Part shown: positions 14,745 through 22,537 of the stretch, piece by piece | How positions within the stretch are numbered: position 1 is the first letter of the stretch | How the letters are laid out: every line of letters starts with the position of its first letter | Origin: Cognatiluteimonas lumbrici | Lineage (GTDB): Bacteria; Pseudomonadota; Gammaproteobacteria; Xanthomonadales; Xanthomonadaceae | Length of the DNA: 64,000 bases | Assembly (NCBI RefSeq): GCF_006476065.1 | Contig: NZ_ML636798.1 | Coordinates: forward strand, 602,906-666,905 | Direction of reading: 5' to 3' | Translations under genes and position numbers: made by a program | Notes under the pieces: generated by a model | The model's input: the letters and a program-made list of their open reading frames with translations, nothing else | What the model was told of the DNA's origin: nothing | Database searches by the model: none

Positions 14745-16895
14745 CTATTCCTGGGGTGTTTCCGGCAGGGTGAAGTGGAATGTGGCGCCCTCGCCTTCCG
14801 CGCCCTCGGCGCGGATGGTGCCGCCGTGGCGCTCGACGATGCGCTTGACCGAAGCCAGGCCGATGCCGTCGCCGGCGAACTGTTCCTGCGCATGCAGGCG
14901 CTGGAACGGGCGGAACAGCTTGTCGGCATAGGCGGCCGGGAAGCCGGCGCCGTTGTCGCGCACGAAGAACTCCTCGCCGTCGCGGCCGACCTCGATGCGT
15001 GGCTGCACTTGGTCGCGGGTGAACTTCCAGGCGTTGGCCAGCAGGTTCTCGAGCAGGTTGCGCACCAGGTGCGGGTCGCCGGTGGCGGACAGCCCCGGCT
15101 CGATCACGACGTCGACCTCGCGACCGGGCTCGTTGGAGCGCAGCTCGGCGACCACTTCGGCCGCCATCCGCGACAGGTCGAGCGCGGCCGGCTTGAGCCC
15201 GCCGCGGCCCAGCCGCGCCATCTTCAGCAGGCTCTCGATCAGCGAGCCCATGCGCGCGGCGGCGTTGCGCACCCGCACCAGGTGCTCGCGGCCGTCCTCG
15301 CCGATCGCCTCGCCGTGCCGCTCGAGCAGCAGGCGGCTGAAGCCGTCGATCGCGCGCAGCGGCGCGCGCAGGTCGTGCGACACGCTGTAGGCGAAGGATT
15401 CGAGGTCCTGGTTGGCGCTGGTCAGCTCGCGGGTACGGGCCTGCACCCGCGCCTCCAGGGTCCGGTTCAAGGCCAGCACCTGGGCTTCCGCGCGCAGCCG
15501 GTCGGTCACGTCCTCGACCTGCACCAGGCGCGCGAAGTCCTCGCCGATCTCGCCCGGTACCGGCGCGTAGGTCATCTGCACCTGGCGCAGGCCGCCGCCC
15601 TCGCTCAGCAGCGAGCGGGTGCTGCGATGGACGCCGCCGGGGCGGCGCTGGCCGTCCTCGCCCTGCAGGAACCAGTCGTCGAAGCGGGTGCCGACGAGCT
15701 GTTCGAGCGGCCGGCCCAGGATCCGCGCCATCGCCGGGTTGGCGTCGACGATGCGGTCGTGGTTGTCGAGCAGCGCCTTGCCGATCGCCGAGTATTCCAT
15801 CGCCGCGCGGAAGCGCTGCTCGCTGCGCCGGTAGGACTCGGTCATGCGCGCGGCCAGCCGCTCCGCGCGCAGGTGGGTGCGGGCCAGCACCAGCGCGACC
15901 GCGAACAGCAGCAGCGAGGCCAGCACGCCGACCGCCACGGTGCTGCGCAGGTTGGTCATGCCGGCGGTGATCGCCGACTCGGGGCGCGAACGGTATTCCA
16001 GCCGCAGGGTCCTGCCGTAGGCCTCGAGGGTGCCCTCGGTGGTGAATGCCGGCGCCTCCCTGGCCAGGTCGTCGTACAGCGGGCGGGATGCGCCGCCGGT
16101 CACGTCCTCGATCCGCATCGCCGGCCGCTGCACCATGGTGCGCAAGGTGGCGTCGACCCAGCCGCGCACCCGGAACGCCGCGTACACCCAGCCCTGCAGG
16201 GACTCGCGCCGCGCCGCGGTGCTGCCGGGGCGGTCCCCGAAGCGGTAGACCGGCAACATCAGCAGCATCGCCGGCCCCGAGACCGCGACCCCACGGTCCT
16301 GCACCAGTTCGACCTGGCCGGAAAGCCGCGGCAGCCCGCTGTCCCTGGACGCTTCCATCGCCACGTTGCGGACCGGATCGGAGAACATGTCGAAGCCGAT
16401 GGCGCCGACGTTGGCCGGCGAATGCGGCTCCAGGTACAGGATCGCGCCGTAGTGCTCGCGCACGCCCCGCGGCCAGACGCTGAACAGCCCTTGTCCGCTG
16501 TCGCGCAGCAGTTCCTGCAGCGCCGCCAGCTCGCCCGGCGTACCGTAGGTGGCGAAGCCGAGTCCGACCATCTCCGGGTAGCGCCGGTCCAGGCTCAGGC
16601 CGTCGACATAGTCCCGCCACTGGCGCGCGCTCGGCCGCGCCACCGAGGCGAACAGCGACACCCCGCCGCGCGCGACCAGCTCGTACTCGCCCAGGCGCTG
16701 CCCGAGCAACGCGGTCGCCTCGTCGGCGCGCGCCTCGAACTCGACCCGGGCCGCCTCCATCTCGCGCGCGTGCGCCGAGCGCCAGTACAGCCAGACCAGC
16801 AGCAGCGAGGCGGCCAGCACCAGCAGCGCCAGCGCAGGGCCGATAAGGGCACTGCGCGGGGCGTTCGCGGTGTCGTCGACCTTGGCGGGAGGCAT
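14745..16895 (-). CDS. Sensor histidine kinase, CHASE-PAS-HisKA-HATPase
   Basis: 716 residues from ATG 16895 (an in-frame ATG at 16928 would add 11). One membrane helix lies near 20-40, a CHASE-type periplasmic sensor at about 55-310, a second helix near 320-340, a PAS domain about 360-470, and a short coiled coil. The H-box is SYSVSHDLRAPLRAIDGF with the phospho-His near residue 507. HATPase motifs are LLANAWKF, DNGAGF and GDGIGLASV. There is no receiver domain and no response regulator next door, so it is an orphan. Signal unknown. A TATCCT hexamer lies seven bases before the chosen ATG. Confidence 0.9.
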   Translation of the reverse strand: MPPAKVDDTANAPRSALIGPALALLVLAASLLLVWLYWRSAHAREMEAARVEFEARADEATALLGQRLGEYELVARGGVSLFASVARPSARQWRDYVDGLSLDRRYPEMVGLGFATYGTPGELAALQELLRDSGQGLFSVWPRGVREHYGAILYLEPHSPANVGAIGFDMFSDPVRNVAMEASRDSGLPRLSGQVELVQDRGVAVSGPAMLLMLPVYRFGDRPGSTAARRESLQGWVYAAFRVRGWVDATLRTMVQRPAMRIEDVTGGASRPLYDDLAREAPAFTTEGTLEAYGRTLRLEYRSRPESAITAGMTNLRSTVAVGVLASLLLFAVALVLARTHLRAERLAARMTESYRRSEQRFRAAMEYSAIGKALLDNHDRIVDANPAMARILGRPLEQLVGTRFDDWFLQGEDGQRRPGGVHRSTRSLLSEGGGLRQVQMTYAPVPGEIGEDFARLVQVEDVTDRLRAEAQVLALNRTLEARVQARTRELTSANQDLESFAYSVSHDLRAPLRAIDGFSRLLLERHGEAIGEDGREHLVRVRNAAARMGSLIESLLKMARLGRGGLKPAALDLSRMAAEVVAELRSNEPGREVDVVIEPGLSATGDPHLVRNLLENLLANAWKFTRDQVQPRIEVGRDGEEFFVRDNGAGFPAAYADKLFRPFQRLHAQEQFAGDGIGLASVKRIVERHGGTIRAEGAEGEGATFHFTLPETPQE

Positions 16896-16965
16896 CCGGC
16901 GCAGGATAGCCGGGCTTCCGGGCGGCATGCGTGAATCCCCGCTGCACCTGCCATTCCCCGGGTCC

Positions 16966-17021: not shown

Positions 17022-17377
17022 GGGGGTGCACTGGCTTCGACGGGGGTTGCGAAATTGCCTGGCGCATGCCGAGGGGGTAGCTTTCCTCGTTAATCCAGCT
17101 GCAAAAAACCAGACGCCAACGACGACGTCTACGCTCTCGCCGCTTAAGGCGTAAGCCCCGAACCCACTTGTGCCCTTGCTCGTGGATGTAGGGTCATCAT
17201 CAAGGGAACAGGCAGTGATGGCGACCGGTCAGTCGCTGCCGAAACCAAAGCCGGTATGGATCGTGGCGTGCTTCGTGCGGTGTGTTGCCACGGTCCGAGA
17301 TCGAACACCGCACTAAGCATGTAGTGCCGGGGATGGAGTGCCTTCGGACGGCGGTTCGATTCCGCCCACCTCCACCA
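17022..17377 (+). ncRNA. ssrA: Transfer-messenger RNA (tmRNA)
   Basis: One-piece tmRNA of about 356 nt. The 5' end GGGGGTGCACTGGCTTCGAC pairs with the 3' end to form the tRNA-Ala-like domain, which closes with GGTTCGATTCCGCCCACC and TCCACCA. The tag reading frame starts at GCC 17115 and encodes ANDDVYALAA followed by TAA at 17145-17147. The AlaAla end is the degradation signal. With smpB it rescues ribosomes stalled on broken mRNA. Confidence 0.97.
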
Positions 17378-17378
17378 A

Positions 17379-17978
17379 TCACGTGCCGGCCGCCCCCGCC
17401 TCGGGAGCGCGGCCGGCCACCGCGGCGAGGCTCGCGCCGCGCTCGAGCAGGCCGCGCGCCAGGAACAGCTCGACCCGCTCCAGCGGGATCCGGTCGCCGG
17501 CATCGCTGCCGTACCACGCCTCCACCACCCGCCCGTGCTCGTCGATCAGGAAATCGGCGGGCATCAGGTTGTTGGTGTTGAGCCCGGCCAGGCCGACGAT
17601 GCGCAGCCCGCGCAGCAGCGTCGGCACCCGCCGCACGATCGCCTTCAGCTTGCCGGCCAGCGAACGCTCGATGCCGTAGCGCGAGTGGCTGGCGCCGAGC
17701 GGGTCGGCCGCGATCCGGAACGGCCGCGGGTGCCGCGCCACGAAGCGCAGCACGTCCTCGCGGCTGGAGCCGAACACCGCGACCACGTCCAGGCCCAGCG
17801 CCGACAGCGCCCGGTAGTGGTGGGTCAGCTCGAAGATGCGGAAGTTGCAGAACGGACAGGCGGCGTCGCGGAAGAACGACAGCAGCGTCCGGCGGCCGCT
17901 GTCGCCGATCGCGATCGGACGGCCGTGGATGTCGACCAGCTGCAGCGGCGGCGCGCTATCGGGAACGGCCAGGCGCAT
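17379..17978 (-). CDS. Peroxiredoxin-like/AhpC-TSA family protein
   Basis: 199 residues, thioredoxin fold. The redox motif is CPFC (Cys41, Cys44) in FFRDAACPFCNFRIFELTH. The order then follows the peroxiredoxin-like 2 pattern, with DVVAVFGSSREDVLRFV and ADFLIDEHGRVVEAWYGSD. It probably reduces peroxides or disulfides; the substrate is unknown. The ATG at 17978 has GGGGGAG upstream. Its stop codon is one base beyond the 3' end of the convergent ssrA, so the two transcripts must overlap or end inside each other. Confidence 0.85.
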   Translation of the reverse strand: MRLAVPDSAPPLQLVDIHGRPIAIGDSGRRTLLSFFRDAACPFCNFRIFELTHHYRALSALGLDVVAVFGSSREDVLRFVARHPRPFRIAADPLGASHSRYGIERSLAGKLKAIVRRVPTLLRGLRIVGLAGLNTNNLMPADFLIDEHGRVVEAWYGSDAGDRIPLERVELFLARGLLERGASLAAVAGRAPEAGAAGT

Positions 17979-18079: not shown

Positions 18080-19957
18080 TCAGCCGCCGCGCGCGACGCT
18101 GGCCACCGCGGCCACCAGTTCCTCTTCGTCGATCGGCTTGCCCAGGTGCATCTGGAAGCCGGCGGCCAGCGCACGTGCGCGGTCGTCGTTGCGCGCGAAC
18201 GCGGTCAGCGCGATCGCCGGGGTCTCGCCACCGCTCTCCTTGGCCAGCGCCCGCAGCGCGCGCAACAGGCCGTAGCCGTCGGTGCCCGGCATGCCGATGT
18301 CGCTCACCAGCACGTCCGGGCGGAACGCGGGCATGCGCTCCAGCGCCTCGGCGGCGGAGCCCAGCGTGCAGGTGTGGGCGCCGGCGTCGGACAGCACCCG
18401 TCCGATCCAGTCGCGCGCGTCGGCCTCGTCGTCCACCACCATCACGCTCAGGCCCGACAACGGGCGACCGCCGCCCGGCGAGAAACCGGGGCCGGACGAA
18501 GGATGCCGGGTGGCATGCGCGACGCGCGCCCCGCGCACCACCGGCAGGACCACGGTGAAGGTCGCGCCCTGCCCTTCGCCCGCGCTGTCCACCGCAACCG
18601 AACCACCGTGCATCTCGACCAGCTGGCGCACGATCGCCAGCCCCAGCCCGAGGCCGCCGTGCTCGCGGGTGGCGGTGCTGTCGGCCTGGCGGAAGCGGTC
18701 GAACACGTGCGGCAGGAACTGCGGCGCGATGCCGAGGCCGGTGTCCGTGACGGTGATGCGCACGGTGTCGTTCACCACCTCGGCGACCAGCGCGACCCGG
18801 CCCTCGCGGGTGAACTTGATCGCGTTCGAGAGCAGGTTCCAGAGCACCTGCTGGATGCGCCCGGGATCGCCGTGCATCGGCGGCACCCCGGGGTCCACGC
18901 GCGCCTCGAGCACCAGCTCGCGCGCGGCTGCCGCGGCCTGCACCGCCTCCACCGCCGCCTCCACCACCTCGCGCAGGTCGTAGCCGCGCACGTCGAGGCG
19001 CAGCTTGCCCGACACGATCCGGCTCATGTCGAGCAGGTCGTCGATGATCCGCGTCTGCACCAGCGCGTTGCGCTCGATCACCTCGGCCGCCTGCAGCAGC
19101 TTGGCGTCCTCGTGGACCAGGCGCTTGAGGATCTGCGCCCAGCCGAGGATCGGGGTCATCGGCGTGCGCAGTTCGTGCGACAGCGTGGCCAGGAATTCGT
19201 CCTTGAGCCGGCTGGCGGCCTCGGCCTCCGCGCGCGAGGCCTTGACGTCGCGGTCCTGGCGCTCGACCCGCGCCAGCATCTCGTTGAAGGTGTCGGTGAA
19301 CGCGCCGAGCTCGTCCACGCCGCTGCCGACGGTGTCCGCGCGGAGGCTGTAGTCGCGGCTCTCCGAGACCCGGCGCGCGGTGCGCGCGAGTTCCGCCACC
19401 GGCCGCGTCACCAGCCCGGCCAGGTAGCGCGACACCAGGAACGACAGCAGGATCGCCACGCCCGCGACCAGCGCGCTCAGCAGGGCGTTGCGCCACAGCA
19501 GCTCGCGCAGGTCGGTCAGGTCGTAGACCACGCGCAACCGCCCCAACACCTGGCCGCGCTCCTCCACCGGGACCACGCGCGTGACCAGCCGCGCCCCGGT
19601 GCGCAGCAGGCCGTCGCCGGGACTGGCGCGCTGGTAGCGCGCGAACGGCGTGCCGTCGAGCGCGTACAGGGTGGCCGAATCCACGCTCGGCATGGCGCGG
19701 AACGCCGAAAGCACCTCGCCCGCGGTGGTACGGTCGCCGAACACCAGCGGCGCGCCGCTGTTGAGCGCGGTGGTGGCCACCTGGGCATCGAGCGCGGCAA
19801 ACGCGGCGCTGCGCAGGTTGACATGGTTGGCGGCCGCCAGCAGCGCCGCCACCAGCAGGATTGCGGTCGCGCTGGTGCCGGCCACCAGCCAGGCCAGCTT
19901 GTCGCTGAAGCTGCGCGGCGGCCAGTGCGGGATCACCCGGTTCATGGCGTGGCTCAT
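18080..19957 (-). CDS. Hybrid sensor histidine kinase with CHASE8-like periplasmic domain
   Basis: 625 residues. TM1 lies at about 20-42. The periplasmic part (about 45-150) has GDRTTAGEVLSAFRAMPSVD and SATLYALDGTPFARY, the pattern of the YfiN/CHASE8 sensor domain. TM2 is near 155-180, then a HAMP (about 180-235) and coiled coil. HisKA has LSHELRTPMTPILGW (His261). HATPase motifs are NLLSNAIKF, DTGLGIAP and GGLGLGLAIV. A C-terminal receiver has MVVDDEADARDW and the phospho-Asp in LVSDIGMPGTDG. There is no HPt or output domain. It starts inside the yfiR stop (ATGA), so the two are coupled. Confidence 0.9.
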   Translation of the reverse strand: MSHAMNRVIPHWPPRSFSDKLAWLVAGTSATAILLVAALLAAANHVNLRSAAFAALDAQVATTALNSGAPLVFGDRTTAGEVLSAFRAMPSVDSATLYALDGTPFARYQRASPGDGLLRTGARLVTRVVPVEERGQVLGRLRVVYDLTDLRELLWRNALLSALVAGVAILLSFLVSRYLAGLVTRPVAELARTARRVSESRDYSLRADTVGSGVDELGAFTDTFNEMLARVERQDRDVKASRAEAEAASRLKDEFLATLSHELRTPMTPILGWAQILKRLVHEDAKLLQAAEVIERNALVQTRIIDDLLDMSRIVSGKLRLDVRGYDLREVVEAAVEAVQAAAAARELVLEARVDPGVPPMHGDPGRIQQVLWNLLSNAIKFTREGRVALVAEVVNDTVRITVTDTGLGIAPQFLPHVFDRFRQADSTATREHGGLGLGLAIVRQLVEMHGGSVAVDSAGEGQGATFTVVLPVVRGARVAHATRHPSSGPGFSPGGGRPLSGLSVMVVDDEADARDWIGRVLSDAGAHTCTLGSAAEALERMPAFRPDVLVSDIGMPGTDGYGLLRALRALAKESGGETPAIALTAFARNDDRARALAAGFQMHLGKPIDEEELVAAVASVARGG

Positions 19958-20565
19958 GGCGCGCCCCACAGGCGTGCCAGTTTCAGCACCTTGGCGCTGA
20001 CCTGCATTTCGGAGTCGCGGATCGCGGCCGGATTGGCCTCGATCGCCAGGTTGCGGCCCGAGCGCACCAGGCCCAGCATGCCGCCCGCGGCGGCGAAACC
20101 GGGCACGTCGCTGACGGTCAGCACCGGCGCGCCGGCCACGGCGCGCAGCACCAGGCGCGCACCCTCGACGTCGCCGCCGGCGACGAACACCACGTGGCTC
20201 TCGCGCAGGCGGCGGATGGCGACGCGACGGCTGGCCGGATCCAGGCGCGCATCGAAGCGCACCCGGCGCACCACGATCCGGCGGCCGCGGATGCTGCCGG
20301 CCGCGGTCGCGACCGCGGCGATGGCATCGGTTGCCTCGGCGTCGCCCACCACGCTCACGACGTACGGCGCGCCGGGCTCCGTGAAGCGCTGCTCCGGCCA
20401 GTCGGTGTAGCGGACGAAGTTGACCAGGAACGCGCCCTCGACCCGCAGCCGCAGTTCGCTCGCCGTGGGCGCTTGCGCCTGTGCCGGCAGGGAAGCAGCC
20501 AGCGCCAGCGCCGCGGCCAGGCCGCGCCACCAGCGCCTTCCGGTGCTGGCGCGATCAGGGCGCAA
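19954..20565 (-). CDS. yfiR: YfiR-like periplasmic protein (DUF4154)
   Basis: 203 residues from a TTG at 20565, the only reasonable start; AGGTGG lies upstream. It gives a clean signal peptide: basic GRRWWRG, hydrophobic LAAALALAASL and a PAQA cleavage site. The mature part matches the YfiR fold: GAFLVNFVRYTDWPEQRF, an internal HVVFVAGGD strand, then LTVSDVPGFAAAGGMLGL and a terminal helix. In Pseudomonas, YfiR represses the diguanylate cyclase YfiN in the periplasm and is redox-tuned by disulfides; this protein has no cysteine in its mature part. It overlaps the TonB receptor gene by 11 bp and the kinase by 4 bp. Confidence 0.88.
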   Translation of the reverse strand: MRPDRASTGRRWWRGLAAALALAASLPAQAQAPTASELRLRVEGAFLVNFVRYTDWPEQRFTEPGAPYVVSVVGDAEATDAIAAVATAAGSIRGRRIVVRRVRFDARLDPASRRVAIRRLRESHVVFVAGGDVEGARLVLRAVAGAPVLTVSDVPGFAAAGGMLGLVRSGRNLAIEANPAAIRDSEMQVSAKVLKLARLWGAP

Positions 20566-22537
20566 GCGAGTACACCACCTGGGCGTAAACGCTGCGCGGT
20601 ACCTGCGCGCCCGAGGCTTCCGGGTGCGAGGCGTCCAGCAGGTTGCGCCCCCACAGCGAGAATTCCAGGCCCGGGCGCGGCCGCCAGGCCAGGCCCAGGT
20701 CGGCGCGCGTGTAGGCCGGCGTCCCGGTGAGCGGCACGCGGCTTGCGTGGTACAGCGCGCCGTTGAGTTCGACGTTGTCGCCAAGGTCGAGGTAACCGCG
20801 CAGTTGCGCCAGCCGCTCCGGCGTGCCGGTCTCTTCGTACGGGTACACCGGGCCGTCGATGCGCGTGCGCAGCTCGCTCCAGGAGGCCTCGACGTGCAGG
20901 CGCTCGCCGAACCGCGCCGAGGCGCTGACCGAGCCGCCCCAGGTCGCGCCGGAAGCGGCATCGGTGAAGCTGCCGACGATGCTTTCCGGCACCCCGATCA
21001 GGCGCCGGTAGTCGTTGTAGAACAACGCGGTGTCCAGCACCCAGCGCGGCCCGAGTTGCACCCGGTGGCCGGCTTCCCAGGCCAGCAGCCGTTCCGGGCG
21101 CAGGTCCTTGTCGCCGGCGAGGCCGATCGGCACGTTGCGCCCGCCGATGTCGGCATAGGCGAACACCAGCAGCCCGTCCTCCTCGAAGCGCGATGGCACG
21201 CGCACCGGCCGCGACACCGCGGCCCACAGCGTCTGGTGCTCGCTCGGCGTCCACCACAGCCGCGCACTCGGCTGCACCTGGAAGCCGACGAAACTGTGTT
21301 CGGTGAACTTGCTGCCGAGCATCAGGAACAACCGTTCCGGCACCAGTTCCGTGGTGTTCTGGACGAAGGCGTTGAGCGTGTCCCAGTGCCGCCGCGAGGG
21401 ATCGAACCGCAGCACCGGGCCGTTGTCGATGCGGTCGCCGGTGAGGTCGTACTGCACGCCCCAGATCAGCTGATGGCGCTCGCCCCAGCCGAGCCAGCGC
21501 CGGTACTCGAGGTTGGTGGCGTGGCGGCTGGCGCCGTAGCGCGGGCTGTCGCGGCGCGTGTGGTCCCAGTACGCGCGCAGCATCCAGCCTTCCTCGGCAT
21601 CGCGTCCGCTGTGCGCGCGGAACAGCAGGTTGGCGCCTTCCACGGTCGCGTCCCCGGCCACCTGCTCGAAGCGCATGTTCTCGCCGGGGACCGGCAGCTG
21701 CACGCGTTGGCCGGCGCGCGGATGGGCATACGCGTCGCCCTGCAGCGTGTAGCCGACCGTGCCGGTGAGCTGGCCGTCGCGGCGGAACCCGCCGCGCAGC
21801 GCCGACCAGACATCGTCCAGCGAGTCGCCGGCCGGGTCCTCGAAATCGCCGTGCGCGTCGTACTTCAACCACACCCGCCAGCCGCCGTCCGCGTCGGCGG
21901 CGCCGTGGCGGACCAGCAGCCCGTGTTCGCCGTTGCTGCCGCCGCCGGCCTGCACCAGGGTGCCGGCGGTGGCGGAGGCGCGCTTGGTGATGATGCTGAT
22001 GACGCCGTTCATGGCGTTGACGCCCCACAGCGTCGCGCCCGGCCCACGCACCACCTCGATGCGGTCGAGGTCCGGTAGCGGCACGTCGACCGTGTCCCAG
22101 AAAGTGGTGGACACCAGCGGGTCGTAGACCAGGCGTCCGTCCACGAGCACCAGGTAGCGGTTCGAGGTCAGCGAGGTCCCGGTGAGGCCGCGCGCGCCGG
22201 CCACCCAGCTGCCGGAATTGATGCGGCCCACGTACATCCCCGGGACCATGCGCAGCGCCTCGACGATGCTGCGGTGCCCGCTGCGGCGCACGTCTTCGCC
22301 GGTGATCACGGTCACCGCCGCCGGCGTCGCGATCTGCGGGCGCGGGCGGCCGGACACGGTCACCACCTCGGTGCGCATCAGCTCTTCCAGGCTCATCGCC
22401 GCCAGGCGGGCCAGCGACTGTTCCGGAGGATCCGTGCCGGGCTCCGTGGCGACGGCCTGGCCCTGCGCGAACGCGAGCCCGATGCCAAGCGTCGCGGCCA
22501 GCGCCCGGCGCACCGGCCTCCTCGTGGATCCTCTCAT
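20555..22537 (-). CDS. TonB-dependent outer-membrane receptor
   Basis: 660 residues from ATG 22537, which gives a signal peptide ending around AVATE. It then has LAAMSLEELMRTEVVTVSG (TonB box-like), a plug domain with ATPAAVTVITGEDVRRSGH and VLVDGRLVYDPLVS, and IEVVRGPGATLWGVNAMNGV before the barrel. The barrel strands fill 180-660. The last residues, AQVVYSLAP, lack the usual terminal aromatic residue. Substrate unknown; this N-terminal type is often seen beside YfiR-like genes. It is the first gene of a three-gene operon with yfiR and the hybrid kinase. Confidence 0.92.
   Translation of the reverse strand: MRGSTRRPVRRALAATLGIGLAFAQGQAVATEPGTDPPEQSLARLAAMSLEELMRTEVVTVSGRPRPQIATPAAVTVITGEDVRRSGHRSIVEALRMVPGMYVGRINSGSWVAGARGLTGTSLTSNRYLVLVDGRLVYDPLVSTTFWDTVDVPLPDLDRIEVVRGPGATLWGVNAMNGVISIITKRASATAGTLVQAGGGSNGEHGLLVRHGAADADGGWRVWLKYDAHGDFEDPAGDSLDDVWSALRGGFRRDGQLTGTVGYTLQGDAYAHPRAGQRVQLPVPGENMRFEQVAGDATVEGANLLFRAHSGRDAEEGWMLRAYWDHTRRDSPRYGASRHATNLEYRRWLGWGERHQLIWGVQYDLTGDRIDNGPVLRFDPSRRHWDTLNAFVQNTTELVPERLFLMLGSKFTEHSFVGFQVQPSARLWWTPSEHQTLWAAVSRPVRVPSRFEEDGLLVFAYADIGGRNVPIGLAGDKDLRPERLLAWEAGHRVQLGPRWVLDTALFYNDYRRLIGVPESIVGSFTDAASGATWGGSVSASARFGERLHVEASWSELRTRIDGPVYPYEETGTPERLAQLRGYLDLGDNVELNGALYHASRVPLTGTPAYTRADLGLAWRPRPGLEFSLWGRNLLDASHPEASGAQVPRSVYAQVVYSLAP

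Follow-up and report, generated by a model that had tools for sequence, protein, structure and literature searches.

A 64,000-nucleotide window of the Cognatiluteimonas lumbrici genome (contig NZ_ML636798.1, positions 602,906 to 666,905) carries an operon for a TonB-dependent receptor, a secreted YfiR-like protein and an inner-membrane hybrid histidine kinase with a periplasmic CHASE8 domain. Most work on YfiR switches has so far dealt with YfiBNR, a sensor of cell-envelope stress. Our analysis suggests that the operon belongs to a widely conserved trio, that its YfiR very probably contacts the sensor domain of the kinase, and that the TonB receptor appears to stand where YfiB stands in the classic system. 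The sequence support for this comes from the operon, its domains, their conservation, the mutual exclusion of receptor and YfiB, and covariation between YfiR and kinase.

The three genes overlap on the minus strand from 22537 to 18080 (window coordinates) and form one operon. The receptor and yfiR genes share 11 nucleotides, and yfiR and the kinase gene share ATGA, the kinase start lying within the yfiR stop codon. A sequence-only reading had described these three overlapping genes, and open reading frames and Pfam domains bear it out; all named Pfam domains of the three proteins score above the curated cut-offs. A Fur box and a sigma-70 promoter were looked for, and neither was found. The features are as follows.

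20555..22537, minus strand: TonB-dependent receptor, 660 aa, ATG start, first gene of the operon (Pfam Plug and TonB_dep_Rec_b-barrel; NCBIfam NF053590)
22349..22396, minus strand: N-terminal segment of the receptor, MSLEELMRTEVVTVSG, ahead of the plug, candidate TonB box or periplasmic tail (13-receptor alignment and N-termini of linked receptors)
19954..20565, minus strand: yfiR, secreted YfiR/HmsC-like protein, 203 aa, probable TTG start (PF13689, 102 bits; alignment to P. aeruginosa YfiR structures)
20476..20565, minus strand: predicted YfiR signal peptide, MRPDRASTGRRWWRGLAAALALAASLPAQA (from reading the sequence)
19969..20007, minus strand: C-terminal helix alpha-6 region of YfiR, residues 187-199 (direct-coupling analysis; A191, K192, K195 and L196 covary with the kinase sensor)
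18080..19957, minus strand: CHASE8 hybrid histidine kinase, 625 aa (Pfam domains)
19529..19813, minus strand: periplasmic CHASE8 domain, residues 49-143 (PF17152, E 1.7e-12)
19739..19753, minus strand: APLVF, residues 69-73, counterpart of YfiN AAVVF, A66-F70 (alignment and column counts; YfiN genetics in PMC3375315)
19262..19423, minus strand: HAMP domain, residues 179-232 (PF00672)
19010..19204, minus strand: HisKA domain, residues 252-316, HELRTP with H261 (PF00512; motif)
18539..18871, minus strand: HATPase domain, residues 363-473 (PF02518)
18104..18445, minus strand: receiver domain, residues 505-618 (PF00072)

The receptor matches Plug (PF07715, 5e-19) and the TonB barrel (PF00593, 7e-20). 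YfiR exceeds the PF13689 cut-off of 24.9 bits several-fold and aligns over its full length to P. aeruginosa YfiR structures (about 1e-6). Since no ATG or GTG yields a plausible secreted start, TTG at 20563-20565 (minus strand) is the probable start codon; it sits inside the receptor gene, which suggests translational coupling.

In the kinase, CHASE8 scores 47.9 bits against a cut-off of 27 and HAMP 32.3 bits against 25, and Pfam finds HisKA, HATPase and receiver domains instead of GGDEF, of which the window kinase has none. Both the YfiN-like periplasmic segment and the kinase output had been proposed from the sequence alone, and the domain search confirmed them; the segment then quoted (DRTTAGEV...) does lie inside CHASE8, although the diagnostic stretch is APLVF, ahead of it. 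The sensor as modelled with AlphaFold2 (predicted local distance difference test, pLDDT, 90; predicted template-modelling score, pTM, 0.73) is PAS/Cache-like: two transmembrane helices flank one long and one short helix and a beta sheet. It has weak structural matches to the periplasmic domains of WalK, LapD-type proteins and CitA.

Conservation of the trio and exchange of receptor and YfiB

PF13689 was present in 84 of 397 genomes sampled across the phylum and in 12 of 60 relatives. At 116 annotated YfiR loci, where partner genes were called by profile search, a TonB receptor lay directly upstream in 58 and downstream in 13 (71 linked) and was missing in 45, and a two-helix CHASE8-type sensor was close to YfiR in 98; these and the following conservation counts are per locus, uncorrected for relatedness. 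A reverse survey took the 80 closest relatives of the receptor from a separate genome collection, using a bait alignment built from YfiR-linked receptors. Among the 74 not cut by a contig end, YfiR was directly adjacent in 59 (53 downstream, 6 upstream). The receptor relatives came from Planctomycetota, Verrucomicrobia, Acidobacteria, Deltaproteobacteria, Nitrospirae and others, so that the survey suggested in the sequence-only reading finds the trio conserved in many phyla. The window genome yields 11 Plug matches but a single YfiR, so that chance adjacency of receptor and YfiR in it is well under 1%. Yet a TonB receptor stands beside 71 of 116 YfiR genes; the adjacency is not accidental.

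The receptor was missing from 19 of 20 GGDEF-only loci, the classic YfiN form. A Pal/OmpA-like (YfiB-like) neighbour, called by motif rather than profile search, was found in 16 of these 19, but in none of the 71 TonB-linked loci, the window included, and none of 14 receptor-less kinase loci. Kinase output was associated with TonB linkage (49 linked versus 14 unlinked loci, against 1 versus 19 for GGDEF-only output; Fisher p = 5e-9, by locus). Because the Pal-like neighbour is common in one class of locus and absent from the other, we conclude from these gene neighbourhoods that TonB receptor and YfiB are apparently alternative partners.

The window YfiR contains no cysteine, as had been claimed earlier, and so is missing the conserved disulfide cysteines of YfiBNR-type YfiR (C71-C110, C145-C152). 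All four are retained by 19 of 19 classic YfiRs, while 48 of the 71 TonB-linked YfiRs retain only the C71-C110 pair; the window YfiR, like those of three related TonB-linked loci, retains none. Folding of P. aeruginosa YfiR is said to be maintained by the C145-C152 disulfide, which is nearly confined to the GGDEF-only branch; the wider family mostly retains C71-C110.

Gene order and copy number vary. In one related group (L064, L067, L068, L072, L073, L077, L079, L080 and L096) the order is YfiR, kinase, TonB receptor. One genome has 7 YfiR copies (including L039, L042-L044, L052 and L053) and another has 9, and in these multi-copy genomes several YfiR genes lie beside a receptor but have no recognised sensor next door. 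At a Planctomycete locus (L139), receptor and YfiR genes alternate in tandem.

The YfiR-kinase interface

Genetics in P. aeruginosa placed the YfiR-binding site of YfiN at AAVVF (A66-F70); on YfiR, binding of YfiN mapped to the C-terminus (V160, F162, L183, F151, E163, I169 and Q187), with R60 and K63, in a conserved region, also implicated (Malone et al. 2012, PMC3375315). In mean-field direct-coupling analysis of 243 non-identical YfiR-sensor pairs (effective number, Neff, 222), the strongest clustered couplings across the two proteins linked helix alpha-6 of YfiR to residues 63-81 of the kinase, the surroundings of APLVF. Residues A191, K192, K195 and L196 of the window YfiR correspond to P178, S179, K182 and L183 of the P. 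aeruginosa protein. The top coupling reached 6.4, compared with 3.8-4.4 in eight pairing shuffles, and the alpha-6 block held 12 strong couplings, compared with 0 or 1 in the same shuffles. When 19,966 equal-sized blocks were ranked, that of alpha-6 with the AAVVF region, nearly identical to the block with 12, came first (11 couplings; best elsewhere 6), and the runner-up, with those 6, joined the same kinase segment to the YfiR region holding R60 and K63. The 156 TonB-linked pairs alone gave 7 couplings in the alpha-6 block versus 0-1 in three shuffles; a wider, literature-defined block showed a weaker excess (5 couplings, 1.8 expected).

The covarying sites on both proteins coincide with the YfiR and YfiN mutant sites of PMC3375315, and the Phe of AAVVF (F73 in the window) is invariant in all 243 aligned sensors. 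Since the covariation peaks at genetically mapped sites and this Phe never varies, the interface is well supported; a contact between YfiR and kinase is very probable, and the evidence that it is kept as in YfiBNR is good, though not final. The analysis supplies exact residues for mutagenesis, namely A191, K192, K195 and L196 of YfiR and N66, A69, F73, T78 and E81 of the kinase.

Proposed mechanism and rival explanations

We propose a three-compartment switch that would work like YfiBNR with changed input and output, a reading we consider evenly balanced between belief and doubt. Periplasmic YfiR would bind the kinase CHASE8 domain through helix alpha-6 and the APLVF segment, and the YfiR-bound kinase would be held in one signalling state, probably repressed by analogy with YfiN. 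The TonB receptor would serve as outer-membrane input in the place of YfiB, and ligand binding or TonB pull on it would change the availability of YfiR. Once YfiR has left, phosphoryl transfer from H261 to the receiver domain, and onward to an HPt domain and/or a response regulator, would be switched. In this scheme we infer the sign of control, the receptor as input, how it reaches YfiR, the ligand and the targets.

A response regulator is the gene directly after the kinase in 29 of 69 TonB-linked kinase loci. Among the genes in this position the GGDEF, EAL and HD families count 8, 4 and 4 (members overlap), and Hpt occurs in 3. Because the next-gene response regulators include GGDEF, EAL or HD domains, some branches may return to cyclic di-GMP via phosphotransfer. 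The window genome encodes HPt domains, 12 GGDEF domains and ExbD, so that a phosphorelay and TonB energisation are both possible.

Several observations weigh against the proposed switch. Receptor and YfiR do covary (67 strong couplings in 163 pairs, 3-15 in shuffles), but in direct-coupling analysis of these pairs the couplings were spread over the plug with no localised contact, and in a receptor-sensor control using the same rows 63 couplings were strong, versus 69 for receptor-YfiR. No STN domain matched the receptor in the Pfam search (E up to 1). A cognate response regulator is lacking beside the window kinase, where the next gene encodes an AhpC/TSA-family protein, and YfiR was absent from the locus in 11 of the 74 receptor relatives. 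As for the YfiR-kinase interface, pairing shuffles remove shared ancestry as well as contact, and the bounds of the alpha-6 block were set after the couplings had been seen, although the block includes L183 and Q187, named earlier by genetics. Structure prediction, which the sequence-only reading had put forward as a check, was carried out with AlphaFold on the YfiR and sensor of a TonB-linked relative (L205), fused in frame by reading the stop codon as Gly, with a topologically unnatural tether. Both folds were confident (pLDDT 93.7) and their relative placement was not settled (pTM 0.61).

With a control as strong and couplings unlocalised, we attribute the receptor-YfiR covariation to shared history and not to contact. 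The earlier suggestion that the receptor takes the place of YfiB is supported by their mutual exclusion as neighbours. Its further step, release of the kinase through YfiR by receptor or TonB activity, may hold, but the covariation does not single out a receptor-YfiR contact. That the receptor is an input by some route is likely; direct capture of YfiR by the receptor is credible but doubtful. The N-terminal pattern SLEELMxxEVxxVS, conserved across the receptor subfamily, is a candidate TonB box. It was also considered as a YfiR-specific docking peptide, with couplings to YfiR slightly enriched (12-14, about 9 expected), and was rejected, since receptors without an adjacent YfiR carry the motif too.

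The absence of localised covariation and of an STN domain would also fit a receptor that is an ordinary transporter of a scarce molecule and never touches YfiR, liganded YfiR then releasing or gripping the kinase. The YfiR part of the L205 model matches solved YfiR (template-modelling score up to 0.79) and also, more weakly, a substrate-binding protein (about 0.5-0.6), and a surface pocket of P. aeruginosa YfiR accepts vitamin B6 and L-Trp as ligands (PMC4887326). The reported affinities are, however, millimolar (PMC4887326), the window YfiR has P and A in place of the pocket residues L166 and P178, and a transport gene rarely follows the kinase (one ZnuA among 69 next genes). We regard this explanation as somewhat unlikely.

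Another explanation makes YfiR and kinase a stand-alone envelope sensor, with the receptor a target or passenger of the operon and not its input. Where no receptor is adjacent, YfiR is still paired with CHASE8 at 14 kinase-type and 4 GGDEF+EAL loci, and shared descent can account for the receptor covarying with both partners. Yet the receptor is tightly adjacent over many phyla, on either side of the YfiR-kinase pair, and excludes YfiB, both of which argue for a functional partner and make this explanation improbable. That the genes merely lie side by side, with no binding of YfiR to this kinase, is hardly credible given covariation at the known site, the invariant Phe and the near-universal pairing of YfiR with a sensor.

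Known systems and neighbouring genes

With YfiBNR of P. aeruginosa (HmsCDE in Yersinia) the operon shares a secreted YfiR, a CHASE8/PAS-like periplasmic domain between two transmembrane helices, HAMP, the predicted interface of helix alpha-6 with AAVVF, and an outer-membrane partner encoded alongside. It differs in its output (hybrid histidine kinase, where YfiN has GGDEF), in its outer-membrane partner (TonB receptor, not the Pal-like lipoprotein YfiB) and in a YfiR without any of the four conserved cysteines. Modules of YfiR with a YfiN-type sensor joined to a sensor or hybrid kinase, lacking yfiB, were reported in 2012, with the interaction site proposed to be retained (Malone et al., PMC3375315). 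The window and its relatives share this composition and add a TonB receptor as usual neighbour; TonB is unmentioned in the main text of that paper. The same three kinds of protein are modelled by the NCBIfam trio NF053590, NF053591 and NF053592 (TOL_0244 TonB receptor, TOL_0243 YfiR-like protein and YfiR-associated kinase). NF053590 and NF053591 are the best NCBIfam matches of the window receptor and YfiR, although the window scores (481/645, 95/125 and 129/194 bits) each fall short of the curated cut-off. No function can be read from the model names; that of the kinase notes its association with YfiR. Kinase-output YfiR modules and the NCBIfam models both predate this analysis, and the operon is less novel than the sequence-only reading implied.

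FecA-FecR and FpvA-FpvR likewise place a TonB-dependent receptor beside signalling genes. Receptors of the FecA/FpvA type carry an STN domain at the N-terminus and signal via an anti-sigma regulator, whereas no STN domain was found in the window receptor and the last protein is a kinase. HmrABCX of Caulobacter was considered for comparison and dropped, its paper containing no YfiR. No paper on the TonB-linked form was found in open-access full texts (subscription papers and supplements lay outside the search), which is weak evidence of absence.

A broader proposal, for which our doubt slightly outweighs our confidence, is that these loci represent a widespread, undescribed form of TonB-linked trans-envelope signalling. 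An STN-less receptor would control YfiR as a soluble inhibitor in the periplasm, YfiR would gate CHASE8 transducers whose outputs (kinase, hybrid kinase, GGDEF-EAL) can be exchanged, and YfiBNR with its Pal-like YfiB would be one specialised branch of a general TonB-receptor/YfiR module. If TonB receptors are the usual outer-membrane partner of YfiR, a signalling role can be predicted for many orphan receptors, and an inhibitor and an input for many orphan kinases; the question of what YfiR modules originally sensed then comes within reach of tests.

In the window, the AhpC/TSA gene (17379-17978, minus strand) is downstream of the kinase. In a same-genus relative (L026, 10923-11462) it lies upstream of the receptor, beside gnd, with the same outer flanks as in the window, and YfiR is absent from most same-genus genomes searched. 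Given this shift of the AhpC/TSA gene between unchanged flanks and the scarcity of YfiR in the genus, this site may have gained or lost the trio. A second membrane kinase (CHASE, PAS, HisKA and HATPase; 14745-16928, minus strand) is encoded near the trio and adjoins the tmRNA gene (17022-17377, plus strand).

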